IMG/VR virus record: IMGVR_UViG_3300027996_000052
Location: 1 to 48,976 of that record
Length of the DNA stretch: 48,976 bases
Direction: 5' to 3' (one strand)
Source: a virus
The notes below the pieces were generated by a model. The model saw only the letters and a program-made list of their open reading frames with translations, was not told the DNA's origin and ran no database searches. A program made the translations under genes and the position numbers. Shown in pieces: positions 14,447 through 32,481 of the stretch (positions are counted from its first letter, which is position 1; each line of letters starts with the position of its first letter).

Positions 14447-14875
14447 AAAAACATTATTGAAAAATGAAAAAGTTTATTAGAAAATTTGGAGAATCTAAAA
14501 AAAGAAGTACTCCAACGAATAGAAGAAGTCGTACTAAACGTTTAAATGAGCAACATGGGCTGGTAGATGATATTTTATTCTATTATCCAGAAGCATTTGA
14601 CTCGTCTCAACACTATCACGATTGGATATTTCAAATTAGTAGAACGTTTAATGTTGAACTTATGGGAATGGAAAGCACTCAACAGGGTATAGAAATGAAG
14701 ATTCGAGGTTCACAAGAAAATATTGATGAGTTAAATGATTTAATGGATCACGACAGCTTACGTGAGCACCCTGATTTCGAATACTTATTTCCTAGTGGGC
14801 CATACTCTTAAAAATTACGAATCATTAAAAACATCATTGAAAAATGAAAAGGTTTATTAAAAACTTTGGAGAACT
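14447..14875 (+). repeat. Direct repeat spanning the starts of two paralogous genes
   Basis: About 49 bases around the start of the gene at 14464 (14447-14495) are repeated almost exactly around the start of the gene at 14844 (14827-14875). Both copies share the leader AACATyATTGAAAA, the ATG and the codons for MK(K/R)FI. The repeat marks a tandem gene duplication whose leader and N-terminal peptide are the best-kept parts. Confidence 0.7.
14464..14811 (+). CDS. Small protein with capsid-targeting-like N terminus, paralogue A (115 aa)
   Basis: The N terminus MKKFIRKFGE|S resembles the T4 capsid-targeting decapeptide (MKTYQEFIAE|A) in its Met-Lys start, aromatic spacing and Glu at position 10. 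A basic linker (residues 12-28, Arg-, Lys- and Thr-rich) follows, then a globular part of about 80 residues. That part aligns with the next gene over DDILFYYPEAFDS, then HDWIFQISRTF, then IEMKIRGSQENIDELNDLMD. The fold looks like a small alpha/beta domain (strand-helix-strand-helix). No catalytic motif is visible. It follows the sheath gene by 27 bases. A packaged internal head protein is the main hypothesis; a host-modifying protein is the alternative. Confidence 0.7.
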   Translation: MKKFIRKFGESKKRSTPTNRRSRTKRLNEQHGLVDDILFYYPEAFDSSQHYHDWIFQISRTFNVELMGMESTQQGIEMKIRGSQENIDELNDLMDHDSLREHPDFEYLFPSGPYS

Positions 14876-15188
14876 TAATGAACAGATTGATAAAAGTAGA
14901 AGAGGTCCAGGTTTTCCAAAAGGCCTTAGGATATATGATATATTATATTATAATTTAGATGACTTTGAATCAATTCACGAATTTCATGAGCTAATATTTG
15001 CAATAAGCAAAGAATTTCCAACTTTCGAAGTTACAGGATTAAAAAAAGGTATTGGTGATTATATGGAGCTTCATATTAGCGCTCAAGAAGCAGATATGTA
15101 TAATCTACAAGATATACTAGATAACGATATTCAATGGGATAATTGGTTTAATGGCCAAATTAGGAAAAACCTTAGGCGCGAAATATAA
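14844..15188 (+). CDS. Small protein with capsid-targeting-like N terminus, paralogue B (114 aa)
   Basis: This is a paralogue of the preceding gene. It shares MKRFIKNFGE at the N terminus and the same core order: YDILYYNLDDFES, then HELIFAISKEF, then YMELHISAQEADMYNLQDILDND. The basic linker is shorter and less charged, and the C terminus ends in a basic helix (QIRKNLRREI). The two copies have diverged a lot except in the N-terminal peptide and core hydrophobics, so the duplication is old and both are probably used. It ends 5 bases before the amidase start. Confidence 0.7.
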   Translation: MKRFIKNFGELNEQIDKSRRGPGFPKGLRIYDILYYNLDDFESIHEFHELIFAISKEFPTFEVTGLKKGIGDYMELHISAQEADMYNLQDILDNDIQWDNWFNGQIRKNLRREI

Positions 15189-15193
15189 AAAAT

Positions 15194-16072
15194 ATGGTTT
15201 TAAAAATAGGTAGTTCAGGACCACAGGTAATAATATTACAAGAATTTTTAAACATAACTGCAGATGGAGATTTTGGACCAAAAACAAAATCTTCTGTTGT
15301 TTCATGGCAATCTAAAAACGGATTACTTGCTGATGGAATAGTTGGACCTAAAACCTGGGATGCTATGCAATTAGCAACAACAGACTCATCAGAAACACTA
15401 CAAAACGATGGTGAAATAACAATAAGTAAACATTATCTACCAAGCGGTGAATACAAAATAGGACCAACTAAAAAAGAATATTTATTTATACATCATACTG
15501 CAGGTTGGCAAAATCCATATAGAGTTATAGATAGTTGGGGAAGAGATAATCGTGGAGCAGTAGGCACTGAATTTGTTATGGGAGGGCAATCTATTAAAGG
15601 CAATGATGATAAATATGATGGTGAAATCGTACAAGCTTTTCCAGAAGGATGCTATGGCTGGCATTTAGGAAAAAATGGTTCTAGACATATGCATACACAT
15701 TCAGTAGGAATAGAAGTATGTAATTTCGGTTATCTAAAAGATGGAAAGACATATGTTGGAACAATGCCACATTCAAGTCAAGTAGTTAAATTAGCAAAGT
15801 CATTTAGAGGATATCAAGAATGGCATAAATATTCTGATGCTCAATTAAAATCATTAAAAGACTTAATTATCTATATTGCAAATAGAGATAATATAGATGT
15901 TAAAGATGGATTAATAAAAGAAATCCATTTGCATGGAGCAGATGGATTTAATTTTAATGAAGATGCATATTATGGTAAAATTAAAGGATTATGGACTCAT
16001 ACAAATACTAGAAAAGATAAATTTGATATGTTTCCACAACAAGAACTATTAGATATGCTTTTATCTATTTAA
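15194..16072 (+). CDS. N-acetylmuramoyl-L-alanine amidase with peptidoglycan-binding domain (endolysin)
   Basis: This enzyme cleaves the amide bond between MurNAc and L-Ala in peptidoglycan. Residues 4-58 form a PG_binding_1 domain (GSSGPQVIILQEFL, DGDFGPKT, DGIVGPKTW). Residues ~93-285 form an Amidase_2 (T7-lysozyme/PGRP-like) domain. Zinc ligands are predicted as a His in FIHHTAG (100-101), H269 in WTHTNTRKDKFDMF and D278, with the general-acid region at K275. GIEVCNF is the conserved central strand. There is no signal peptide or membrane segment, so export would need a holin, which is not seen nearby. The stop codon overlaps the convergent GroES stop. Confidence 0.88.
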   Translation: MVLKIGSSGPQVIILQEFLNITADGDFGPKTKSSVVSWQSKNGLLADGIVGPKTWDAMQLATTDSSETLQNDGEITISKHYLPSGEYKIGPTKKEYLFIHHTAGWQNPYRVIDSWGRDNRGAVGTEFVMGGQSIKGNDDKYDGEIVQAFPEGCYGWHLGKNGSRHMHTHSVGIEVCNFGYLKDGKTYVGTMPHSSQVVKLAKSFRGYQEWHKYSDAQLKSLKDLIIYIANRDNIDVKDGLIKEIHLHGADGFNFNEDAYYGKIKGLWTHTNTRKDKFDMFPQQELLDMLLSI

Positions 16073-16365
16073 TCAAATTCTTGAAAACTAATCTCATCTT
16101 CATCTTCTAATATAGCTATTACTTCATTAGACATAATAACATAATGCTTTTCTTCTTTATAGAATAGTTCAACTCCAGCAAATCTATTATGTAATATAAT
16201 ATCTCCAGGTTTTACTAACATTGGATTATGCTTAGATCCATCTCCACAAGAAACAACAACACCAATATTTGGTCGCTTTACTGCTTTTTCAGGAAGCATT
16301 ATTCCATTCACAATAGTTTCTTTATCTTTAGGTTTTACTAATATTCTTTCATATAATGGCTTCAT
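16069..16365 (-). CDS. groS: GroES co-chaperonin
   Basis: This is the lid subunit of the chaperonin. The 98-aa protein has the GroES plan: N-terminal strand PLYERILVKP, mobile loop at about 17-30 with the hydrophobic tripeptide IML (22-24) that docks on GroEL, roof region GDGSKHNPMLVKPGD, and C-terminal strands ending VIAILE. The C terminus carries an extra acidic tail (EDEDEISFQEFD). T4 uses gp31 instead; this sequence looks like true GroES rather than gp31. The partner GroEL is encoded 14 kb away at 30086. The start overlaps the RNase H stop as ATGA. Confidence 0.9.
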   Translation of the reverse strand: MKPLYERILVKPKDKETIVNGIMLPEKAVKRPNIGVVVSCGDGSKHNPMLVKPGDIILHNRFAGVELFYKEEKHYVIMSNEVIAILEDEDEISFQEFD

Positions 16366-17528
16366 ATGCTAGGTAAATTATTTTTTAGATTAATAAATTT
16401 AGAAAATTTAAATTTTTTAAATGAATAAGCAGATAGAGAATCATCTAGCGCCTTCTGAATATTGTTTGGGAAAATCTTTGTGTTTAGACGCATTATCTTA
16501 ATATTAAAAATTAAGTGTTCCCTGATTTCATTTATGTTATCCTCGGAGGTTATCTTAAAAAATGCTCCAATTTCAGTAGCTAAAAATGTTAAAAATGTTA
16601 AATCGAATGAATCAACATAAGACATTACAGAATCTCCAAATTTATCTTTTACCTTTATAGAAAGTTTAGAAAACTTTAATGGAGTCATTTTTAGTACTCT
16701 TGGAATATTATCAGACCCATCTCCCAAAACAATTTTTGATAAAATTTCAGAATCTGGTGAAACTTTAAATTCTGAAAAACCTTTATTTTTAAAATTTTCA
16801 ACAACTGTTTTAAAAGTAGATGCACCAATATCTTCATCGCTTAATGAAAAAAAGCTATCATATTCATTTACATTTTCAGAGCATTTAGAAACAATACTCA
16901 TCGGAATAAAGATCTTTTTAGTTTTACTGGTTTGTTTTGGAACCATTAAAGAAACAGTACCTGAAGTAGTTGATTCTACTAATTGTTTAAAATCATGATC
17001 TACTGAATATAGAAAAATATCTGATCCTAATTTTTCACATAACCACGTAATAATATCATCGCCCTCAGTATTTGGAACTCTATAGTAGTTTAAATTACAG
17101 TGTTCAATTAATGGAGAAATAAGAAATTCATCAAAATAATCAAAGAATAAATATTGATAATCATCAGATTTTCTATTTCCTTTATATTCAAAACTAGTAG
17201 GCGCACACTCAGTTTTAAACTCACCGTTTTCAAAAAAGTCTAATACAAACTCTTTTCTCCAACTTAATGAATCTCTAACAAAATGTACTCCAGTTAAATT
17301 AGAACTAATAGGAAAAAGTAAACTATTTAGATATGTAAAACAAAAATCTCGATAGAGTACTTTTACCTCATTAGTTAACATTGCTCCGTTTTCACTAAAT
17401 AAGTCATCTACCCAATATTTTACATTAGATCTATTATACGGTTTTGTTTTATCTTTGTTTGAAATTAATGACTTTACGACATTTAATGCAACATTTACAA
17501 AGGCATTACCGTCAATTATAAGATCCAT
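16362..17528 (-). CDS. rnh: RNase H / 5'-3' exonuclease (T4 Rnh, FEN family)
   Basis: This enzyme removes RNA primers and adjacent DNA from lagging-strand fragments, stimulated by gp32. The FEN-type acidic residues are visible: D6 (IIDGN), the helical-arch basic motif YKGNRK (115-120), E155, D157 and D158 (NTEGDD), D177 and D179 (SVDHD), and D270 and D273 in LGDGSDNIP, which also marks the helix-hairpin-helix metal site. The length (388 aa) is above T4 Rnh (305 aa). As in T4, it lies in the gp32 neighbourhood. The stop overlaps the GroES start. Confidence 0.9.
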   Translation of the reverse strand: MDLIIDGNAFVNVALNVVKSLISNKDKTKPYNRSNVKYWVDDLFSENGAMLTNEVKVLYRDFCFTYLNSLLFPISSNLTGVHFVRDSLSWRKEFVLDFFENGEFKTECAPTSFEYKGNRKSDDYQYLFFDYFDEFLISPLIEHCNLNYYRVPNTEGDDIITWLCEKLGSDIFLYSVDHDFKQLVESTTSGTVSLMVPKQTSKTKKIFIPMSIVSKCSENVNEYDSFFSLSDEDIGASTFKTVVENFKNKGFSEFKVSPDSEILSKIVLGDGSDNIPRVLKMTPLKFSKLSIKVKDKFGDSVMSYVDSFDLTFLTFLATEIGAFFKITSEDNINEIREHLIFNIKIMRLNTKIFPNNIQKALDDSLSAYSFKKFKFSKFINLKNNLPSI

Positions 17529-17554
17529 AGTAAAATATTTAGGAAGATTATTTT

Positions 17555-17860
17555 TTAAGTATTTGAAGGTTCAGTAGGAGTATCTTCAACTTGCTGCTCA
17601 GTACTTTTTTTGATAGTTCTAATTGCGTTTGCGAGAGTTTCACTCTCTAAAAGATTAAAACTACCTTTTGCTTGAGCAAAATTTGCAGCAGCCATTAGTA
17701 TAAAAATTGACTGATTAATATTCATTTCTGAAATAAATTTCTCATATGCAGTATCGTCGGTATATCCAATAGTACCGAATAGTAAATTTTTTTCTTGAGT
17801 ATTTTTAACTTCAGACTTTTCAGTTGCTTGAACTGTTTGTTCTTCTACGTTTTTATCCAT
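17555..17860 (-). CDS. Hypothetical protein between gp32 and RNase H, 101 aa
   Basis: A central helical core (YEKFISEMNINQSIFILMAAANFAQAKG then LESETLANAIRTIKKS) is flanked by polar, disordered-looking N and C termini. In T4, the late co-activator gp33 and the helicase loader gp59 lie between gp32 and rnh, so this could be a positional counterpart. I see no sequence support for either. It follows the gp32 stop by 20 bases and is certainly co-transcribed with it. Confidence 0.75.
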   Translation of the reverse strand: MDKNVEEQTVQATEKSEVKNTQEKNLLFGTIGYTDDTAYEKFISEMNINQSIFILMAAANFAQAKGSFNLLESETLANAIRTIKKSTEQQVEDTPTEPSNT

Positions 17861-17880
17861 TTTGAAATTATTTTTTGTTT

Positions 17881-18891
17881 TTATAAATCTTTAAATAGGT
17901 CATCGTATTCATCTCCAGTTGAATCAGAAGCAGTTTCAGTAACTTTAGCAGCTACCTCAGTTGACTCTTTTGAATTAGTAAAAGCAACTGTTGTATCTTC
18001 TGGAAAAACTGAAGAATTTGTTTTATTGCGATCTAATAATTCACGAAGTAAAGCATTCATTTTTTGATCTCTAGATTTAGCAATAGCCATTTCTAAAACC
18101 GTCTTATGCGGAATTGCTCCAACTAAAGCTTCTGCAACTTTTTGATAAGTCTCATCAGTCCATTCAACATGAAGATATTCATCTATTTTTGGAGTATTCT
18201 CAGTTAAGAAAGCACCAATTGCTTTAATAACTTTAGGGTCGTTTGCAGCAATAATATTTTTACCGTTTGTTTTTATCATCAATGGAGTAATATCATCCAT
18301 GAATTTACACTTGTCCCAATCTCTAAAAATTTTTGTTTTCTTTGATACGACACATAAAAAATCTTTTCCATTTAACATATGAAATGGATTAATTTTCTTT
18401 TGTTCGATTAAACCATCTACTGTTTCTGGATTAAGTTGACCTTCAATTATCTTATCAATATGGCTTCGATATTTTAAAAATTTGACGTGATCTTCTAACT
18501 CAGGTCTCTGTGGATCTTTCTTAATATATATTGGTGCCATGTTTGTATACCATCTCTGAAAACACTGCTTCAACTCATCAAAAAGAGTAGGTTCTGTCTT
18601 CTTAAAGGAATTTACAATTATGTCTAGAGTCCATAGAAAAGAAGGCTCTCCAGTATTAGATGGACAATCAATAATAAGTTTTTCTTTAGTGAGTGGGTTC
18701 CAAATTTTTGCAGAATATTTAGTATACCGTGATAATTTCTTATCATGTATATATGGAATAAACCTAAATACACTTTTGTAGGAACCATTGTATTTGTCTG
18801 GACTAGGGTCATAAATGTTTTCATCTTCTTTATAAGATGTTGTTGCTTTTTTAGTAAAGGCCTCATCAGGTAGATCAAAAAAGTCGCTCAT
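17881..18891 (-). CDS. 32: gp32-like single-stranded DNA-binding protein
   Basis: This protein coats single-stranded DNA and organises the replication and recombination proteins. The 336-aa protein has an N-terminal cooperativity region (MSDFFDLPDEAFTKK) and an OB-fold core with aromatic and basic segments (KSVFRFIPYIHD, RYTKYSAKIWNP, FQRWYTNMAPIYIKKD, HMLNGKDFLCVV). A Ser- and Glu-rich linker leads to an acidic tail ending DEYDDLFKDL. The His/Cys zinc ligands of T4 gp32 are not visible (only C76 lies in that region), so the zinc site is probably lost. The tail is the expected docking peptide for gp43, UvsX and helicase loader. The upstream leader holds a 10-bp hairpin that may serve autoregulation. 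Confidence 0.9.
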   Translation of the reverse strand: MSDFFDLPDEAFTKKATTSYKEDENIYDPSPDKYNGSYKSVFRFIPYIHDKKLSRYTKYSAKIWNPLTKEKLIIDCPSNTGEPSFLWTLDIIVNSFKKTEPTLFDELKQCFQRWYTNMAPIYIKKDPQRPELEDHVKFLKYRSHIDKIIEGQLNPETVDGLIEQKKINPFHMLNGKDFLCVVSKKTKIFRDWDKCKFMDDITPLMIKTNGKNIIAANDPKVIKAIGAFLTENTPKIDEYLHVEWTDETYQKVAEALVGAIPHKTVLEMAIAKSRDQKMNALLRELLDRNKTNSSVFPEDTTVAFTNSKESTEVAAKVTETASDSTGDEYDDLFKDL

Positions 18892-19037
18892 TTTGTTTAC
18901 TTTTTAAAGTTATTTAATAGTTTTTACTTATGTTATATACAGTACTAAATTATATTTTAAATAAAAAATAGATAGTGCTAAAATTCTTCGGGATGCGAAG
19001 AATTTAATCTATTATACTGCTTTTTTAGCAAAAAGTT
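18892..19037 (-). promoter_or_regulatory. gp32 leader region with possible -10 box
   Basis: This 146-base gap lies between the metallopeptidase stop and the gp32 start. On the minus strand it reads, in order, a TATAAT at 19016-19011 without a recognisable -35, a strong hairpin (18981-19005), and then about 90 bases of A/U-only-looking leader up to the gp32 ATG. This is the same layout as the T4 gene 32 autoregulatory leader, where a structured 5' element is followed by unstructured AU-rich RNA. Confidence 0.35.
18981..19005 (-). terminator. Perfect 10-bp hairpin in the gp32 leader (terminator or autoregulatory element)
   Basis: AAATTCTTCG (18981-18990) and CGAAGAATTT (18996-19005) form a perfect 10-bp stem with a 5-base loop (18991-18995). 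Read leftward it is followed by only a short T run (TTTTAGC), weak for a rho-independent terminator of the metallopeptidase operon. It could instead nucleate gp32 binding for translational autoregulation. No sequence complementary to the loop is found downstream, so I see no pseudoknot. Confidence 0.55.
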
Positions 19038-19772
19038 TTAGATTGAGTTGACTATTTTTTTTACACGATCTGTGTATTTCGCATCAGGGTAGGTTTCAAG
19101 AGAATGTATTATCCATTTTTTTAGAACAATGTTATACTCTTCTTGTGTTATAAATTTTTGTTTAATAAATGGATTTAAATATTGATGAAATATTATATCA
19201 ATTGAAGTGTCTGTATTTTTAGATCGCATATACATTCCACGAACCATTGCTTCTACTTCCTCGTCTAATAAAAAATATTTAAATGAATCCTTTGACTTAA
19301 GCCTTTCATGATTAGTAGAAACATGAGTATTAAACGGAGACTCATCTGGGCCAACTTGATTTAGATGAGTTGTTTCATGAAACAATAAATCAACTAATCT
19401 ATTACTTAATTCAAAATAATTTATTTCATCAACTGAAGATAGTAAAATATTTATTTTTATTTCAGGTACATAATAATCATTATTATTAACCTTTACATTG
19501 GCATCAATACAATAACCAAACTTTTCAAAATTATGAATTTCCCAATCCATATCTTTAAAGTGAGAATCTGTTTGTATATTATCTATTTTTGAATGCTTTA
19601 TATATACACAAATATCACACAAAAACGGTTCAAAGATTTCTATTTTTTTAATGAGAAAATAGTCATCCTTTAAAGAAGAATCTTTTATAGAATTAATAAT
19701 AGTTTTAGTTGTTTTTTTAAAAAAACTATTATTTTCTAATGACTCATTAATAAATTCTATGAATGATTTCAT
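19038..19772 (-). CDS. HExxH zinc metallopeptidase-like protein with capsid-targeting-like N terminus
   Basis: The 244-aa protein has a gluzincin-type zinc site: HETTH at 132-136 inside a helix (LVDLLFHETTHLNQ), and a downstream helix LLDEEVEAMVRGMY (168-181) whose E171, E172 or E174 could be the third ligand. The N terminus MKSFIEFINE|S matches the T4 capsid-targeting peptide (MKTYQEFIAE|A), with Ile-x-Glu at the cleavage position 10. The region in between is strand-rich. There is no signal peptide or membrane segment. It lies 1 base after the LRR gene and is the last gene of the accessory operon. The peptidase call rests on the motif; the substrate is unknown. If packaged, it would act in the host cytoplasm at injection or in prohead maturation. 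Confidence 0.7.
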   Translation of the reverse strand: MKSFIEFINESLENNSFFKKTTKTIINSIKDSSLKDDYFLIKKIEIFEPFLCDICVYIKHSKIDNIQTDSHFKDMDWEIHNFEKFGYCIDANVKVNNNDYYVPEIKINILLSSVDEINYFELSNRLVDLLFHETTHLNQVGPDESPFNTHVSTNHERLKSKDSFKYFLLDEEVEAMVRGMYMRSKNTDTSIDIIFHQYLNPFIKQKFITQEEYNIVLKKWIIHSLETYPDAKYTDRVKKIVNSI

Positions 19773-19773
19773 A

Positions 19774-20562
19774 TTAATGTGATATTTTACAATTTGGTAA
19801 TTTACTCTTTAACCAATTTATTTGCTCCCATGGAAAGTCACGAGAACGACTATATACATTTAAATTTTTAAGATTTTGCAATTGTCCAATCTCTGGAGGT
19901 AGCTTTTTTAATGCTTTATTATTACCCATATATAACCGCTCAAGATTTTTAAGTTGTCCAATCTCTGGAGGCAATTCCTCTAAGAAATTATTACGTATAT
20001 ACAAATATTTAAGGTTTTGAAGTCTTCCAATCTCTTTTGGTAGTTCTACTAAGCTATTATAACTTAAACTTAAATAGTTAAGATTTTTAAGTTGTCCAAT
20101 TTCTTTTGGTAGCTCTATTAAGCTATTATAACTTAAATCTAATTGTTTAAGATTTTTAAGCTGTCCAATCTCTTTAGGAAGCTTAACTAGCCGGTTATGA
20201 CTTAAAAATAATATTTCAAGTTTTTGCAATTGTCCAATCTCCTTAGGAAGCTCTTCTAATGTAATAAAATTATCTTCTAAATCTAATACTGTAAGAGTTT
20301 TAAATTGGGAATTCGACACTAGTGGCAATTCCCAATCACTAGTTGCTTTAATTGCTTTAAAAATATCAGAAGTTTCAATATTTCTCAACTTAAACATTAT
20401 ATCGTATTTATTGATTAATGCTAATTTAAGCTGATATAATAAGTCTTGGCCCTTAGCAACTTCAATTGCTAACTCAATATCTCCGCCTTCAACTAATTCA
20501 ATTAATGAGTTAACTGAATCATCATTTGACTCATTAATAATAAATTGCTTAAATGATTTCAT
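19774..20562 (-). CDS. Leucine-rich-repeat protein A with capsid-targeting-like N terminus
   Basis: Residues ~105-240 hold about six 23-residue repeats of the form LPKEIGQLxNLxxLxLxxNxL, the bacterial LRR type that forms a curved protein-binding surface. The N terminus MKSFKQFIINE|S resembles the capsid-targeting peptide with one inserted residue (Glu at 11). Residues 17-75 form a helical domain (SLIELVEGGDIELAIEVAKGQ) shared with the next gene. The repeats are also near-identical in DNA, suggesting recent repeat expansion. There is no membrane anchor or signal peptide, so it acts in the cytoplasm or inside the virion. The start overlaps the upstream LRR gene stop as ATGA. Confidence 0.88.
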   Translation of the reverse strand: MKSFKQFIINESNDDSVNSLIELVEGGDIELAIEVAKGQDLLYQLKLALINKYDIMFKLRNIETSDIFKAIKATSDWELPLVSNSQFKTLTVLDLEDNFITLEELPKEIGQLQKLEILFLSHNRLVKLPKEIGQLKNLKQLDLSYNSLIELPKEIGQLKNLNYLSLSYNSLVELPKEIGRLQNLKYLYIRNNFLEELPPEIGQLKNLERLYMGNNKALKKLPPEIGQLQNLKNLNVYSRSRDFPWEQINWLKSKLPNCKISH

Positions 20563-21395
20563 GTTATTATTGTAGTATTTGGCAGCGCATTATTTAAATC
20601 AGAAATTAGTTGTTTATCATTACAAATAGGATTACTATATATTTTTAGCATCTTAAGATTAGTTAAATTTTTAATTTCATCAGGTAACTCTTCTAATTTA
20701 TTATTATTAATATTTAAAACTTCCAATGACTGTAGATTTCCTATTTTTGGAGATATTTTAGTCAACTTATTACCGGAAATCCACAATTCTTTTAAATTTA
20801 TTAAATTTCCAATATTGTCTGGTAATTTTTCTATGTTGTTATATCCCATTGTAATATGCTCCAATGATGTCATATCAAAAATAGATTGCGAAATATTAAT
20901 TATGTTATTACCACCAATATTTAAACGTTTTAATTTTTTAAGACCACTAAAAAATGAATTTATATTATCTCTTCCAAAGAACATATCATTTAAATTCATA
21001 TCGTTCATTGATAAATTATTTAGATTTGGAAGTATTTCTAAATTTTTAGGTAGCCCATATGAAATACACCTCCTCCGAACTAGTCGTATTCCCTCAAGAT
21101 TATTTAAATCTCTAGCACTATCAGGTAAACTAAAGTAACATCTAGTAATTACACTATATGTAAGACTAAATAATTTTCTAATCTTAGATTTAATTAAAGA
21201 AGAAGTATATATTTCATCAAAAATACTAAAGAGCTTACCATATCTTGTTTGAATAAAACTATTTAGGTCAAAATTTTGTCCATATGCAAGAGTATATGCT
21301 AATTCAATATTTGTTTCATCTCCAGTGGCTAATAAGTCTATTAATAAACTAGGATCAAATTCTGATTCATTAATATATTGTTTAAATGACTTCAT
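20559..21395 (-). CDS. Leucine-rich-repeat protein B with capsid-targeting-like N terminus
   Basis: This is a paralogue of the following LRR gene. The N terminus MKSFKQYINE|S has Glu at position 10 with Ile-Asn before it, fitting the (I/L)-x-E rule of the T4 prohead protease. Residues 15-75 repeat the helical domain (SLLIDLLATGDETNIELAYTLAYGQN). The C-terminal ~150 residues are LRRs that are more diverged than in protein A (LKKLNIGGNNI, LEHITMGYNNIEKLPDNIGNLINLKELWISGNKL, LEVLNINNNKLEELPDEIKNLTNL). The stop and start overlap both neighbours as ATGA. Function unknown; a ligand-binding surface for a host protein is likely. Confidence 0.87.
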   Translation of the reverse strand: MKSFKQYINESEFDPSLLIDLLATGDETNIELAYTLAYGQNFDLNSFIQTRYGKLFSIFDEIYTSSLIKSKIRKLFSLTYSVITRCYFSLPDSARDLNNLEGIRLVRRRCISYGLPKNLEILPNLNNLSMNDMNLNDMFFGRDNINSFFSGLKKLKRLNIGGNNIINISQSIFDMTSLEHITMGYNNIEKLPDNIGNLINLKELWISGNKLTKISPKIGNLQSLEVLNINNNKLEELPDEIKNLTNLKMLKIYSNPICNDKQLISDLNNALPNTTIIT

Positions 21396-21652
21396 AATAA
21401 TTTATAAATATCTGTAAACCAAAAGTCTATTTGGCTTTCTACAATGTATTCCTTTAATAAAGAATACATAATTTCATCTTCTGAATGAACAGCGTTACTA
21501 TTATATTTTTTAGTATACCAGGATTCTATTAATCTAGGAGATGTAAAAAAGCGGTATTTATTTCTACTAACACCATCTATAAAATGAACATGATAGATTC
21601 CATATTTGTCAATTTTAAATTTATCTAAAGTAAATTCTCTTGGATCTATCAT
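21392..21652 (-). CDS. Hypothetical protein, 86 aa, in the LRR operon
   Basis: This is a small protein without the capsid-targeting-like N terminus of its neighbours. Residues ~8-40 look like beta strands (FKIDKYGIYHVHFIDGVSRNKYRFFTS) and the rest is helical (SEDEIMYSLLKEYIVESQIDFWFTDIYKLL). It may be an adaptor or immunity-type partner for the LRR or peptidase proteins; only operon position supports this. The stop overlaps the LRR B start as ATGA. Confidence 0.65.
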   Translation of the reverse strand: MIDPREFTLDKFKIDKYGIYHVHFIDGVSRNKYRFFTSPRLIESWYTKKYNSNAVHSEDEIMYSLLKEYIVESQIDFWFTDIYKLL

Positions 21653-21664
21653 CTATTCATATAA

Positions 21665-22171
21665 TTATTTTTTTATTGGTATGAAAGTTATATTTATTTC
21701 TTGAGTAGTTGGAATACCATCCTCTGTAAAAATAATAGTTAGTTCAGGTTCGCGAGAGCCAAACATATCAGTTATCATAGCATTTTTTAGTTTTTCTATA
21801 AATTCAGCATCATCATCAGAAATATTAACTTTTTCACCCTTAACGATTTTAAGTAGATTATCTTGTCTTAATTTTAAAGTAGACGAATTTAACTTATTTT
21901 TATCAGTTATTTGAATATTAGAATCAATCCACTCTTCTAAATCTTCTTTATATGTTGAATACACTGGATATTCAACGCTTGAACTTCCGTCTGGATATTT
22001 TTTTCTGTTTAGTTCTAACTCATCATCTAAGAATAAAAATTTAATAGGCTTTTTACTTGGAGCTGGAGTTTCTTGTCCACCCATAGCAGGATCAGTTAAA
22101 CCCATATCTAAACCTAAGTCTTGCTCAAATAAGAATTGCTTTACTGTTTTAATATGTTTTAAAAAAGCCAT
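21665..22171 (-). CDS. Hypothetical protein, 168 aa, with a possible offset capsid-targeting peptide
   Basis: Near the N terminus, residues 7-16 read IKTVKQFLFE|Q. This can be aligned with MKTYQEFIAE|A of T4 internal proteins, with Leu-Phe-Glu at the would-be cleavage site, but it is offset by six residues. A Gly-, Met- and Pro-rich linker follows (about 17-40), then a globular alpha/beta part with strands IKFLFLDDEL, EYPVYS, LTIIFTED and INITFIPIKK. No catalytic motif is visible. It is the first gene of the accessory operon, downstream of a strong terminator. Structural or internal head protein is possible. Confidence 0.65.
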   Translation of the reverse strand: MAFLKHIKTVKQFLFEQDLGLDMGLTDPAMGGQETPAPSKKPIKFLFLDDELELNRKKYPDGSSSVEYPVYSTYKEDLEEWIDSNIQITDKNKLNSSTLKLRQDNLLKIVKGEKVNISDDDAEFIEKLKNAMITDMFGSREPELTIIFTEDGIPTTQEINITFIPIKK

Positions 22172-22226
22172 TATTTTTATGTTTTATTTTTGTTATCTAT
22201 TTTTATTATTTATTTTAGTTAAAAAT

Positions 22227-25530: not shown

Positions 25531-28500
25531 TTATAGATAATCTCTAAAAAGACCAACTTGATCTGCAGCTGTTGATATAAACTGATCAAGAAATATTAAA
25601 AAGAGAATATTTTTTGGGGAAATCCTTTCCCATGGAGGAATATCATCTTGGTTTAAAATAGGATGAAGTTGACGTAATGCAAAGGTTGGAAGTTTCATAT
25701 CTTTTACTGAAACTGTTCCTGAAGAATCAATACTTGGAACCTTTATTTCTGGAAGAAGTGAAGAAGCGACTCCACCAGCTACTGCAAGAATCATAGGTAA
25801 TGGAGAATTAATAATTGGTGCAAGCGCAGTTTCAAATAATTTAGTTTTAATTTCTATTTTACCTAAATCAGGTATTTTAAAATTTGCTGAGGCTGGAGCA
25901 GCTTGTTTTAATTTAGTAACTGCTGTAAATTTTAATTCATTTGGCGGACCAGCTGGTGGAATCTTCTGTTGTACAAATTCAACAATATTTAAATTAGCAT
26001 CTCTAGTAGGTTGAACAATATCCAATATTGAATAAAACGGTTTTAAAATATCCTCTAATGTTGATAAAAATAAATCAACGAATGTTATTAACATAGATGA
26101 TATATCTTCTGGATTAACATTAACAAAACTAGTATCTAAGCTTCTAAAATTAGGTAAAACATCTTTTTCTGAAGTTAAAAATATATTGCTTGAAGGTTTA
26201 TATGTATCTGAATCAGGTAAAGGTTTCTTTTTTCCAGAATAAGTTCCATCAGATAATATTGAATTATTTGAAGTATCTTGATGACAGTCGACAATATTAA
26301 TTTTTGGATCTATTTTTGGAGTATTTTCTGGGTCGGTTGGTATCTCCTCTGTAGAAGCCGAAGGTATATCAATAGGATCAGGCAAACTTGAAATACAGAA
26401 AGTTTTAAATAAGGCTGAGGCTGGGCCCTTTAAAATATTTAAATCGATTGGTATACTGGCAAACATAGCAGGTTGAGCTGCTAATATTGGAGCCTTTGGT
26501 TCAAATAATGGAATTAAGATACTTGCAAAAACAGAAGTAAACGAAGCAACATCAAATTCTGGAATAGGAAATTCAATATCTGGAATATATTGTTTTATCA
26601 TATTTATATACGTTGTTCCTATTTCAGATATTGAAATTTTATTTGATGGAATTTCATCAGGTACTGCTGCGTCGCCACTATCTGGAATAACACTTTCCGA
26701 TTTTCCAAAAAATGAAGATAAGTCATCATCACTAAAGCCGTCAATAATTCCATCAAGTATAGATTTAACAATAGCTAATGGAATTTCAATAGGTAGTGGC
26801 AAAAACTGTGGTAAAGAAAAGGGAGACTTTGCACAACATGGACTAAATGGATTGAAATCTATTCCTAATAATGCAAAACTTAAAAGCATTTCAGGAGAAG
26901 CTAGTTTATTTCTATCAAAATTATTTTTACTTTCATTTAATTCATTTAATGACGTTTGTAAATTTTTTACTTTTAAATCTAGTTTAGTTTTTTTAACTTT
27001 ATCTGGTTCAGAGTCACTTTGGTTTTTAAAATCTAGAATATTCTCTTCAGCTTTACCCATTTCGCCAGAATCATTTTTTCCTTTTATTTTATCTGTTAAT
27101 GTTGTAGTTATACTTTTTAATGCTTCTTTTACTTTATCTTGATCTTTAGATAAATCAAGAATTCCACCAGTATCTCCAAAAGTAGAAGCAAGTTGAGTTT
27201 TTATTTTATTTTCACTTTTAGCAAACTCTATTAAAAAAACTTTTTTAGCTGATTTAAAATCATCTGGAAAAAATTTACTTTTACTTAATTCTATGAAACT
27301 AATAATAGTATCTAAAAATTCAAAAATTGCATTTTGTTTTGGGTCAATTGCTTGAGCATTTTTTGGTATTTTTACTTTTGGAAATGTTAATTTATTAAAG
27401 TGTGTATGTGCATCAGAACAAACAGCATCTATTTTTTCACTTAATGGAATATTATCATTTTTAGAAGATTCACGTATTTCTTTAGCTTTTTTAGTATCAC
27501 AATTAGATATTGCTTCTTTTAAATTAATTAAATCATTATCTTGCTTATTATAAATTTTTTCTTTTATTTTATTTGAATTATCTAATCTAGGAGTTCCTAA
27601 TGAATTGAGTTGGCTTATTAATGATATTTTTAATTCATTAATTATATCAGTAGGAGATTCTTTTCTATCTGTTATTTGTTGTAACTTTTCAAACTCTCCT
27701 AGACCTTCAGTAGATTTATTTAAATCTTTAATTGCTTTATCTGTTCTTAGTTCTTGCGTTTTATTATTATTATCTTTTGCATTTTCATTTCGCATAGATA
27801 AAATATTCTTATTGTTTTGTAAATCTATTTTTTCAGAATCTGTTAAATTATAGTTTTTACCAAACTGCTCTTCATTACTTTGTCTATTAAGAGACTCAGC
27901 CATTGCTAATTCAGATACAGTAGATTGAATATCTTCTTTTATTGTTTCATCTTGACTATCATATCCAAATTTTTCAGAAGAACCCTTTACTGTAAGAATA
28001 TGTTGTTTGAATCCAGAATTAGATACAAAGAATACGATTGGGGATATAAAAATTCCATTTATAGTTAGAAATATTACAATACTTCCAAGAGGACTGGATA
28101 GAGCAACTAGGGGTATCCAGATAATAGGCAGTGGTATTTTTACTAGACCAGACGGAGCAGTTACAGTTAATCCGACTGGCCAGTAACGAAGCTGATTAGG
28201 AAGATTTGGCATAGGTATTAAACCCATTAAATTTAAAACAAGAGAAAACTGTATCCAATAACAAAGCTGATTTGGGTTTGGTAATGTAGGATCTACTCCA
28301 TTTGAGGTTTGTGTAAAAAGTGGATCTATTCCTAATTTTTCAAAAACGTCTGGACACTCATCAATAGGTTCATCGATTTTATCAAAACATTCAGAGCTAG
28401 ACTCTCTTAATAATTTTTTTATTTTATCTGGTGTTGGTTTTAATTCATCTACTAATATTTCAATTCTTTCTATTTCTTTATCTAAATCAGAATATGAAGA

Positions 28501-29994
28501 AGCAAATAGATTATTTTCTGAATCTATTTTATCAATAAACGTTTTTAATGTATTTGAATTTTTTGATAGGTGTGTACTTACTCCACTAAATGATAATAAA
28601 AATTGGATTTCAGCCCTAGCTAATTTTTCCATATAATATTTTATACTATCTTGTACTGGAATAACTTCTTTATTTTTAACAGATTCTGTCCTAACTTCTA
28701 AACTTTTTTCAAATGTTTTATAAAATTCCTGTAATGTGTCTAGGTCCTTAACGAAAAACTCTTTTGCTCCTTCTTTCTTTTTTTCTCCTTCTGTTCCTTT
28801 TACTCTTGCATCTACTAACTGCTCATCATTCGTTAATCCACGCTCATCTAATGTAAAAAAATTATTTATTGGATCTTCAAATAAATTATAATACTTGGTA
28901 TATAAAATACCACCAGGAAGTATAACACTATTATTATATTGAGATAAATTAAATAATCTATTTTCCTTAAAAAAAGATTTTTTCTCAATTAAAACATTTT
29001 CCTTTATTTTAAAATTAACCTTTTTTATTGTACGATCACCAGTTAATTCATTTTTTTCTTCTTCTTCTATTAAAAGATAATTTAAATTAGGAAAAGCTAA
29101 TGAAAAACTTAGATAGTTTGTATTTAACGCTTGTTGTACTGTTTTTGGTTTAAACGAAGAATTTATTGAAATTAAATTAGAATATTGAGATATTATAGTT
29201 TTAACTTTAAAAAATTCAGTTGGACTTAAATAAGTATTTAAAAGATCTGAAAATAATGCTTCTGATGTGAGAGGATCAACAACTCCAGCTAAAATAGTAG
29301 CAATAACAATATTTGATTTTTTAAAAATTGGAATAGATTTTTCTCTGTTTTTTATTAAATTTAAATTAGCTGTTTTATTTTTTTGTTCAGTGTTTATTTT
29401 GTGATTTATTTCTAAAATCTGTTTATTTATTTTTTCAGTTAGTGGAACATTAAAAGCGGCACCGATGAGTTCAATATTTAATTTTGAAATATCACTATTA
29501 TATTTAATTATAAGAGAATCAATTCTTTCATTTTCTTTTAATAGTGGTGAAAACAAATTAAGTATTCGAGCAGACTCTTTTGCTCGTTCTTCATAATAAA
29601 ACTTTATTGGAATAATATTATCTCGATATTCTATAAGCTTGGTTAATATTATCCTATGATCAGAGTATTCTTTTATTTGCTTTTTAATTAATTCATTTAC
29701 TTCTTTTACTGAATCTAGACATTTATCTGGACTTTTATCTTTTTGTTCTTGTATTTTATTATTAATATCAGTTAAGTCAAGTTCAATTTTAGGCGGTAAT
29801 TGTGGAAGTGGATCATCACAATCTAGGTCTGAAACGTTAGGAAAAACAGTAGGTATACTACTGCTTGGTTCACATAATGAGTTTTTTAATAATTCATCAA
29901 GCTCCTCTTTTGTAAATCGCTCTAATACTTCCTTTGGAGAAATACCTAAAACGTTTGCAACTTCATTTACTAAAATATCAAAAATAGATGGCAT
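25531..29994 (-). CDS. Very large virion-type protein with hydrophobic segments, 1487 aa
   Basis: I do not recognise a family. The N-terminal ~550 residues are helical and charged, with coiled-coil-like stretches. Residues ~590-665 are Pro-rich and very hydrophobic (LPIIWIPLVALSSPLGSIVIFLTINGIFISPIVFFV), enough to span a membrane. Residues ~670-1030 are again charged and helical. The C-terminal ~450 residues are Pro-, Ile- and Ser-rich with further hydrophobic stretches (FLPLPIEIPLAIVKSILDG, FASILIPLF). A perfect TATAAATA late octamer lies 23 bases before the ATG, so it is probably a late virion protein. It is isolated among non-structural genes. Tail-tube cargo, a tape-measure-like role or a membrane-channel protein used at injection are possibilities. 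Confidence 0.75.
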   Translation of the reverse strand: MPSIFDILVNEVANVLGISPKEVLERFTKEELDELLKNSLCEPSSSIPTVFPNVSDLDCDDPLPQLPPKIELDLTDINNKIQEQKDKSPDKCLDSVKEVNELIKKQIKEYSDHRIILTKLIEYRDNIIPIKFYYEERAKESARILNLFSPLLKENERIDSLIIKYNSDISKLNIELIGAAFNVPLTEKINKQILEINHKINTEQKNKTANLNLIKNREKSIPIFKKSNIVIATILAGVVDPLTSEALFSDLLNTYLSPTEFFKVKTIISQYSNLISINSSFKPKTVQQALNTNYLSFSLAFPNLNYLLIEEEEKNELTGDRTIKKVNFKIKENVLIEKKSFFKENRLFNLSQYNNSVILPGGILYTKYYNLFEDPINNFFTLDERGLTNDEQLVDARVKGTEGEKKKEGAKEFFVKDLDTLQEFYKTFEKSLEVRTESVKNKEVIPVQDSIKYYMEKLARAEIQFLLSFSGVSTHLSKNSNTLKTFIDKIDSENNLFASSYSDLDKEIERIEILVDELKPTPDKIKKLLRESSSECFDKIDEPIDECPDVFEKLGIDPLFTQTSNGVDPTLPNPNQLCYWIQFSLVLNLMGLIPMPNLPNQLRYWPVGLTVTAPSGLVKIPLPIIWIPLVALSSPLGSIVIFLTINGIFISPIVFFVSNSGFKQHILTVKGSSEKFGYDSQDETIKEDIQSTVSELAMAESLNRQSNEEQFGKNYNLTDSEKIDLQNNKNILSMRNENAKDNNNKTQELRTDKAIKDLNKSTEGLGEFEKLQQITDRKESPTDIINELKISLISQLNSLGTPRLDNSNKIKEKIYNKQDNDLINLKEAISNCDTKKAKEIRESSKNDNIPLSEKIDAVCSDAHTHFNKLTFPKVKIPKNAQAIDPKQNAIFEFLDTIISFIELSKSKFFPDDFKSAKKVFLIEFAKSENKIKTQLASTFGDTGGILDLSKDQDKVKEALKSITTTLTDKIKGKNDSGEMGKAEENILDFKNQSDSEPDKVKKTKLDLKVKNLQTSLNELNESKNNFDRNKLASPEMLLSFALLGIDFNPFSPCCAKSPFSLPQFLPLPIEIPLAIVKSILDGIIDGFSDDDLSSFFGKSESVIPDSGDAAVPDEIPSNKISISEIGTTYINMIKQYIPDIEFPIPEFDVASFTSVFASILIPLFEPKAPILAAQPAMFASIPIDLNILKGPASALFKTFCISSLPDPIDIPSASTEEIPTDPENTPKIDPKINIVDCHQDTSNNSILSDGTYSGKKKPLPDSDTYKPSSNIFLTSEKDVLPNFRSLDTSFVNVNPEDISSMLITFVDLFLSTLEDILKPFYSILDIVQPTRDANLNIVEFVQQKIPPAGPPNELKFTAVTKLKQAAPASANFKIPDLGKIEIKTKLFETALAPIINSPLPMILAVAGGVASSLLPEIKVPSIDSSGTVSVKDMKLPTFALRQLHPILNQDDIPPWERISPKNILFLIFLDQFISTAADQVGLFRDYL

Positions 29995-30085: not shown

Positions 30086-32481
<2,396 letters not shown>

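Follow-up and report, generated by a model that had tools for sequence, protein, structure and literature searches.

Several genes in a 48,976-nt stretch of viral DNA (IMG/VR record IMGVR_UViG_3300027996_000052, hereafter the window) begin with a similar short peptide, which raises the question of whether this peptide sorts proteins into the phage head. The idea of such a targeting peptide is already known from T4: targeting of T4 IPIII needs residues 4 and 7, and its processing needs residues 8 and 10 (PMC9026906), and cleavage by gp21 occurs after L/I-x-E (PMC9026906). The initial annotation of the window proposed a capsid-targeting decapeptide on five or six otherwise unrelated proteins, and the six N termini that it quoted were all read correctly. 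The proposal passed several tests for four of the six proteins, which are encoded by one operon, but it does not hold for a tandem pair that lacks the key residues. We conclude that the peptide is very probably a capsid-targeting sequence of the T4 type, carried by a variable island of cargo genes, and we infer packaging, cleavage, and injection of its bearers in this phage.

Proteins bearing the peptide in the window

Table 1. Positions of the tagged operon, its products, and associated features in the window
Feature	Position	Strand	Details
Tandem paralogues, outside the tagged set	14464..15188	+	MKKFIRKFGE / MKRFIKNFGE (starts at 14464 and 14844)
Tag-bearing operon	19038-22171	-	Four proteins fit the peptide: metallopeptidase, LRR A, LRR B, 168-aa protein
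Metallopeptidase, 244 aa	19038..19772	-	HETTH motif at residues 132-136
Metallopeptidase tag	19743..19772	-	MKSFIEFINE; predicted cut after E10
LRR protein A, 262 aa	19774..20562	-	Pfam LRR_14, 2.6e-30; PHROG 6688
LRR A tag	20530..20562	-	MKSFKQFIINE; extra Ile codon, seen in sequence and codons; predicted cut after E11
LRR protein B, 278 aa	20559..21395	-	Pfam LRR_4, 6.9e-20; paralogue of LRR A
LRR B tag	21366..21395	-	MKSFKQYINE; core motif matched; predicted cut after E10
86-aa protein, untagged, same operon	21392..21652	-	Start MIDPREFTLDKFK
168-aa protein, first in the tagged operon	21665..22171	-	Conserved beside the metallopeptidase in relatives
168-aa protein offset tag, residues 1-16	22124..22171	-	Core VKQFLFE; predicted cut after E16
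Late-promoter-like motif	22205..22213	-	ATAAATAAT; precedes the tagged operon, 42 nt ahead of the start codon of the 168-aa gene

We searched the first 22 residues of each protein for the core motif [FYIV]xx[FY][ILV]xE. Three window proteins match it, namely the metallopeptidase, LRR B, and the 168-aa protein (KTVKQFLFE, residues 8-16), where about 0.2 core-matching genes are expected by chance (P for three or more, about 0.001). LRR A begins with the same peptide, lengthened by a single additional Ile codon (ATT ATT). Aromatic residues occupy positions 4 and 7 of the metallopeptidase (F4/F7), LRR A (F4/F7), and LRR B (F4/Y7), and an I/L-x-E site lies at or near residue 10 in the metallopeptidase (INE), LRR A ((I)INE), LRR B (INE), and the 168-aa protein (LFE). 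The metallopeptidase peptide agrees with that of T4 IPIII at all four positions (4, 7, 8, and 10); T4 ipII and ipIII start with MKTYQEFIAE. Across 33 homologues of the 168-aa protein, five columns are invariant; E16 is one of them, and a variable Pro/Ala-rich linker follows it. At the places equivalent to 4 and 7, the window's 168-aa protein has V and F, and most homologues have Y or F/F; the V where an aromatic residue is expected (P7) is a point against the best reading.

To describe the bodies as otherwise unrelated went too far: by pairwise alignment, LRR A is a paralogue of LRR B over its length, and because of this the four proteins represent three unrelated families. Homologous LRR bodies occur in the phage LRR family PHROG 6688 and in LRR genes of contig G020; the G020 genes have a different start peptide (MKIILNENQYKLLFE) that also ends in L-x-E and resembles other gene starts on G020. 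The 244-aa protein is predicted to be an HExxH metallopeptidase from its conserved zinc motif, in which H132, E133, and H136 are invariant in 33 homologues. It had no match in Pfam or PHROG, and comparison with PDB folds gave nothing significant for it or for the 168-aa protein. Its AlphaFold2 model has pLDDT below 50 at residues 1-10 only, and most of its orthologues keep the tag, which one clade has lost. Pfam and PHROG searches gave no significant family match for the 86-aa protein, and assignment of a 115-aa protein to the PTPS family was rejected on a score below the family cut-off.

The tandem pair has F at positions 4 and 8 rather than 4 and 7, with K or N at residue 7, and its would-be cleavage site is F-G-E rather than [IL]-x-E, the residue two before E being F instead of I/L. 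Its members are homologous to one another (shuffle z = 12), and a search for relatives detected none. Because the pair fails at residues 7 and 8 and has no relatives that we could find, we dropped it from the tagged set.

The peptide in related phages

A short start rich in Lys and aromatic residues might arise by chance in an AT-rich genome, and chance does account for the tandem pair, for one match in cyanophage S-SCSM1, and for about a dozen of the 114 loose-core matches (12.5 expected) among 16 related phage contigs and the window. For the family as a whole, chance is already refuted and can be given practically no weight: the canonical tag lies near the N terminus of 82 genes in these 17 sequences, in 41 body families or clusters, against 1.5 expected and a maximum of 7 in 200 permutations. 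N-terminal enrichment is 33-fold, and it is strong also in contig G004, at 42% GC. In IMG/VR, a scrambled control pattern found 12 stretches, compared with at least 120 for the tag pattern. The pattern at the start of many clearly non-virion genes would have counted against the tag reading; even the loose core occurs in 0 of 192 core replication and chaperone orthologues. For MaF61, the tag scan covered 43 kb.

The tagged genes also share an upstream element. A late-promoter-like motif (ATAAATAA in this lineage) precedes 26 of 32 tagged operon-first genes lineage-wide and 265 of the 883 others (p 6e-9), and it is found at the sheath and protease-scaffold genes as well; the classic T4 late promoter (TATAAATA) is not enriched before tagged genes. 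From this motif, the tagged genes are predicted to be expressed late. A common upstream motif, together with the clustering of tagged genes (20 adjacent pairs against 5.4 expected), might instead reflect a 5' DNA cassette of promoter and gene start that spreads by recombination, with no protein sorting involved. This explanation is already disfavored and we regard it as very unlikely, since shared tag residues differ in codon in 496 of 993 comparisons, operon-internal genes have no promoter before the tag, and the positions retained are those that T4 requires.

Protease, scaffold, and virion proteomes

The initial annotation also called for a gp21-type protease with a matching site rule elsewhere in the genome. 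Neither a gp21-family protease (PF03420) nor head genes of the phage's own are present in the window's 49-kb fragment, and the MaF61 record has no PF03420 match, but a protease of this family, with matching sites, is encoded by relatives. It was found in 12 of the 20 contigs searched. In this lineage it is fused to a scaffold built of repeats that follow the same [YF]xxY[LIV]xE grammar as the tag, and a gp23-like capsid gene comes next; in T4, by contrast, gp21 and gp22 are separate. One possible, still tentative reading is that in this lineage the tag, one N-terminal [FY]xx[FY][ILV]xE, corresponds to one unit of the scaffold repeat (about 14 residues, [YF]xxY[LIV][AS]E), so that cargo would dock by mimicking the repeat and be released as the protease breaks the scaffold down. 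If so, injected proteins would be predictable from sequence across T4-like phages by the same short code, including LRR proteins that change tags between lineages.

T4-like cyanophages provided an outside test against published mass spectrometry of purified virions. In S-CREM2, the motif, which was set in advance, picks 3 of 219 proteins, all of them enzymes (a SAM hydrolase, an APH/ChoK-like kinase, and a cytidylyltransferase), and all three are in virions, compared with 52 of 219 proteins overall; this test covers three proteins, and a protein detected in purified virions need not lie within the head. An N-terminal tag is not discussed in the S-CREM2 paper. The NMNAT of S-SCSM1 and the cytidylyltransferase of S-SZBM1 likewise bear the motif and are present in purified virions, and one tagged S-SZBM1 protein is missing from the published virion list. 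Across the three cyanophages, most of the tagged proteins checked are virion proteins. The S-CREM2 and S-SCSM1 enzymes have the same N-terminal motif as the window proteins on unrelated bodies and in phages of unrelated hosts. A looser motif, allowing L at P7 and P4, lost its specificity in S-CREM2 (4 of 10 matches in virions).

These results bear on whether the tagged proteins, if targeted to the prohead core, are delivered to the host or are assembly factors like T4 gp67 and gp68, to be consumed or expelled. Wide conservation of the 168-aa gene beside the metallopeptidase gene would suit an assembly protein, and T4 core proteins are likewise gp21 substrates (PMC9026906). However, cargo bodies differ from genome to genome (the 41 clusters include enzymes such as NUDIX), and the tagged cyanophage enzymes remain in mature virions. 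We therefore consider assembly factors an unlikely explanation.

Probable delivery of the tagged proteins

Because four neighboring genes share a T4-type head-loading peptide, the phage probably delivers their products, carrying a protein-cutting enzyme and LRR proteins into the bacterium along with its DNA. The proteins would be made late, from one operon, and the peptide, through aromatic residues 4 and 7, would anchor them in the scaffold core of the prohead while the shell is still open. A gp21-family prohead protease would then cut after [ILV]-x-E, and the metallopeptidase, the LRR proteins, and the 168-aa protein, now in mature form, would lie free in the head and pass into the next host along with the DNA. 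The interval between the metallopeptidase and 168-aa genes may be a cargo slot that takes up accessory genes, in the window the 86-aa gene and the two LRR genes.

T4 IPI, IPII, and IPIII and the Alt propeptide resemble the window proteins in having an N-terminal decapeptide with F/Y4, F/Y7, I8, and E10, and the T4 internal proteins and the tagged set are alike in the expected cut after [IL]-x-E, diverse bodies, and late expression, which for the tagged set is predicted. Unlike in T4, the cargo includes LRR proteins and an HExxH peptidase here and NUDIX enzymes in relatives, and the tag may lie several residues further in. As far as we found, novelty lies in the lineage, in its cargo of LRR proteins and a metallopeptidase, in the repeat array of the protease-scaffold fusion, and in the correspondence with enzymes of cyanophage virions.

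What a large phage carries into the cell has usually been established proteome by proteome. Should the short rule prove right, the injected proteins of T4-like phages could be predicted from sequence and then checked by proteomics, and the rule offers one explanation for the enzymes repeatedly reported in cyanophage virions. It would also single out proteins not expected as cargo, namely LRR proteins, an unclassified metallopeptidase, enzymes of the NUDIX and NAD-related kinds, and ART-like proteins, as candidates for acting early in host take-over or counter-defense, which is probably what the cargo of this phage serves.

N-terminal peptides in the window and its relatives

The initial annotation proposed that five or six unrelated proteins carry a T4-like capsid-targeting N terminus, and our reading of the IMG/VR virus record (linear, 48,976 bases, 27.6% GC) confirmed the starts of all six ORFs as it had written them. 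The starts of the metallopeptidase (MKSFIEFINE/S; the slash marks the putative cleavage site) and LRR B (MKSFKQYINE/S) and residues 8–16 of the 168-aa protein (KTVKQFLFE/Q) match the motif [FYIV]xx[FY][ILV]xE, and LRR A carries this peptide too, lengthened by the duplication of one Ile codon. By chance, about 0.2 motif genes are expected in the window, and the probability of three or more is about 0.001. The tandem paralogues at 14464 and 14844 were rejected as tagged proteins, as they have F at 4 and 8, K/N at 7, and F-G-E in place of [IL]-x-E. As LRR A and LRR B are paralogous to each other, the tagged proteins of the window belong to three unrelated families. The proposal held for four proteins but not for the tandem pair.

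In the AlphaFold2 models, the pLDDT of the metallopeptidase falls below 50 at residues 1–10 only, and confidence for the 168-aa protein is low at 1–9 and 18–38. Such models would fit a detachable tag, but N termini in general are often modelled with low confidence. A PDB fold search with both proteins gave no significant match.

Among named records, the tail sheath of the window is closest to those of Bacteroidota phages (Flavobacterium MaF61, Lak phages, and Tenacibaculum pT24); it is also close to uncultured phage records of 462–735 kb, and searching with it identified 77 related loci. The metallopeptidase and 168-aa genes adjoin in most loci that contain both. In the window the 86-aa, LRR B, and LRR A genes sit between them, and other tagged genes adjoin the pair in some relatives (L026 18811, L054 19013). 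Across all genomes, 20 adjacencies of tagged genes were counted versus 5.4 expected, and the surroundings of the pair look like a cargo island. Only five columns are invariant in the 168-aa family; the tag's E16 is one of them, and a variable Pro/Ala-rich linker follows it. Most metallopeptidase orthologues have kept the tag; it has decayed in loci L028 and L030 and is missing from one clade (L042, L056, L065, and L067). Where detected in that clade (L056 and L065), a tagged 168-aa-type partner still adjoins the metallopeptidase, and piggy-back packaging with this partner is possible.

Frequency and diversity of tagged proteins

We surveyed 2,463 called genes from 16 related contigs (71–246 kb; G018 and G009 lack small terminal stretches) and the window. 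A total of 114 genes (53 body clusters) had the core motif within their first 22 aa, versus a mean of 12.5 and a maximum of 22 in 200 permutations of the N-terminal residues. When K/R was also required at P9, a position outside the core motif, 82 genes in 41 clusters remained (permutation mean 1.5, maximum 7), and the N-terminal density was about 33 times the internal density. The other free positions converge on I/V/L/M at P10, Q/E/D at P5, N/S at P2, and S/A/E/Q at P1', with counts inflated by 13 paralogues of contig G010, and shared tag residues use different codons in about half. Such starts on many clearly non-virion genes would have spoken against the proposal; none of 192 replication, recombination, and chaperone orthologues was tagged. 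The families tested for sheath, baseplate, capsid, and protease had no tagged member either.

In IMG/VR, the pattern MKxFxxFINE occurred in at least 120 stretches, versus 12 for a control with I and N swapped. We read 84 of the matches: 73 stand at the beginning of an ORF of 60 aa or more (37 body clusters), and 72 of these 73 lie at most 40 residues from the preceding in-frame stop. By eye, the bodies include NMNAT-like, ADP-ribosyltransferase-like, and glucosaminidase-like proteins, and the tagged proteins of relatives include a NUDIX protein by Pfam (7.6e-14). The 13 tagged paralogues of G010 (L111–L123), which start MKHIKLFEQFISEE..., are scattered across one 246-kb contig; they appear LRR-like by eye and have no match in Pfam.

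In contig G020, the LRR homologues adjoin a terminase gene and start MKIILNENQYKLLFE, and several other genes open with similar [IL][IL]xE peptides by eye. The peptide MKIILNENQYxxL occurs there (L342, L343) on several genes, including the LRR homologues and an ART-like protein, and may, judging from sequence, be a second tag dialect.

Protease, scaffold, and late-promoter-like motif

The initial annotation also called for a gp21 protease with matching sites. The window contains no head genes, but the protease-scaffold sites of its relatives do match. A PF03420 (gp21-family) protease was present in 12 of 20 contigs searched. In eleven fetched proteins it forms the N-terminal part of a 649–681-aa ORF, and ~14-residue repeats (e.g., YQNYLAEELDKGLQ-YVEYVAEGTNRSIE) follow one another through the C-terminal half. 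These proteins contain 103 matches to [FYIVLH]xx[FYH][ILVM]xE, about nine each; the density of a slightly stricter core inside all proteins (4.8e-4 per position) predicts about 0.2 per scaffold half. The gene that follows the fusion encodes a gp23-like capsid protein with conserved IFE/Q-type sites near residue 55. The repeat and capsid sites together indicate that scaffold, capsid propeptide, and tags share one site grammar. Three uncultured large-phage records align to 86–93% of the fusion; the named T4-like phages listed align to the protease part only. Fusions with a potential cleavage site in each repeat were seen in G004, G005, G008, G010, G015, G016, and five more relatives.

The sequence ATAAATAA lies 12–52 nt upstream of 26 of 32 tagged operon-first genes versus 265 of 883 others (Fisher 6e-9), and upstream of all 17 sheath and all 11 protease-scaffold genes. 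In the window it precedes the 168-aa gene, the first of the tagged operon, by 42 nt and the sheath gene by 28 nt. In this lineage, the late-promoter-like motif ATAAATAA[TC] is a variant of TATAAATA, the late promoter of T4. The motif also accompanies the GroES-like family in 13 of 15 relatives.

Coordinates and peptides of the features discussed
Feature	Location	Description
Protease-scaffold fusion	L104:15509-17482	example; gp21-family protease and repeat-built scaffold half
Late-promoter-like motif ATAAATAA[TC]	window 11418(+), 37936(+), 30024(-), 22213(-)	28-42 nt before start codons
GroEL-like protein	window 30086-31732 (-)	by sequence
GroES-like protein	window 16069-16365 (-)	by sequence
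1487-aa ORF	window 25531-29994 (-)	no significant Pfam match
S-CREM2 gp6		SAM hydrolase; MKDFDSFLEE; virion protein
S-CREM2 gp14		APH/ChoK-like kinase; MKRFDAFLTE; virion protein
S-CREM2 gp154		cytidylyltransferase; MKNFSSFLTE; virion protein

Tagged proteins in T4 and cyanophage virions

In T4 IPIII, residues 4 and 7 are needed for targeting and residues 8 and 10 for processing; the capsid-targeting sequence brings proteins into the core, and gp21 cleaves after L/I-x-E (PMC9026906; PMC3012670). A comparable motif search of the T4 genes picked out ipII and ipIII plus a single small gene that is unrelated.

As an independent test, we searched cyanophage S-CREM2 with the motif as set beforehand from this lineage; a virion proteome with coordinates has been published for this phage (PMC10665884). 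All three of the motif ORFs (of 219) are virion proteins, versus 52 of 219 ORFs overall (p = 0.013), or 28 of 195 without the 24 structural proteins (p = 0.0027). Near-matches by eye among virion proteins are gp13 (MKDLHSFLTE), gp12 (LRFASFMAE, offset), and gp136 (MQTFSMFFSE); there is no discussion of an N-terminal tag in the S-CREM2 paper. The NMNAT of S-SCSM1 (MKSFLQFLKE) is a virion protein (PMC9602691); its only other gene-called match, a non-virion oxygenase, was taken as chance. In the ~49 kb of the S-SZBM1 genome read, a cytidylyltransferase (MRFRQFIIE) is in the virion, and another tagged ORF, SSZBM1_191, is absent from the 30-protein virion list. A tagged DUF6321-type protein, mostly annotated as hypothetical, is widespread in cyanophage records H76–H114.

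In the open-access literature, to which our claim of novelty is limited, our searches turned up no survey of tags like these among T4-like phages. A review suggests that the capsid-targeting sequence may allow T4-like phages to package various proteins (PMC9026906; PMC3012670). That the tag described here works like a T4-type capsid-targeting sequence is well supported, its processing and the injection of the cargo by this phage are predicted from the sequences, and the four proteins of the window are most likely head-packaged cargo.
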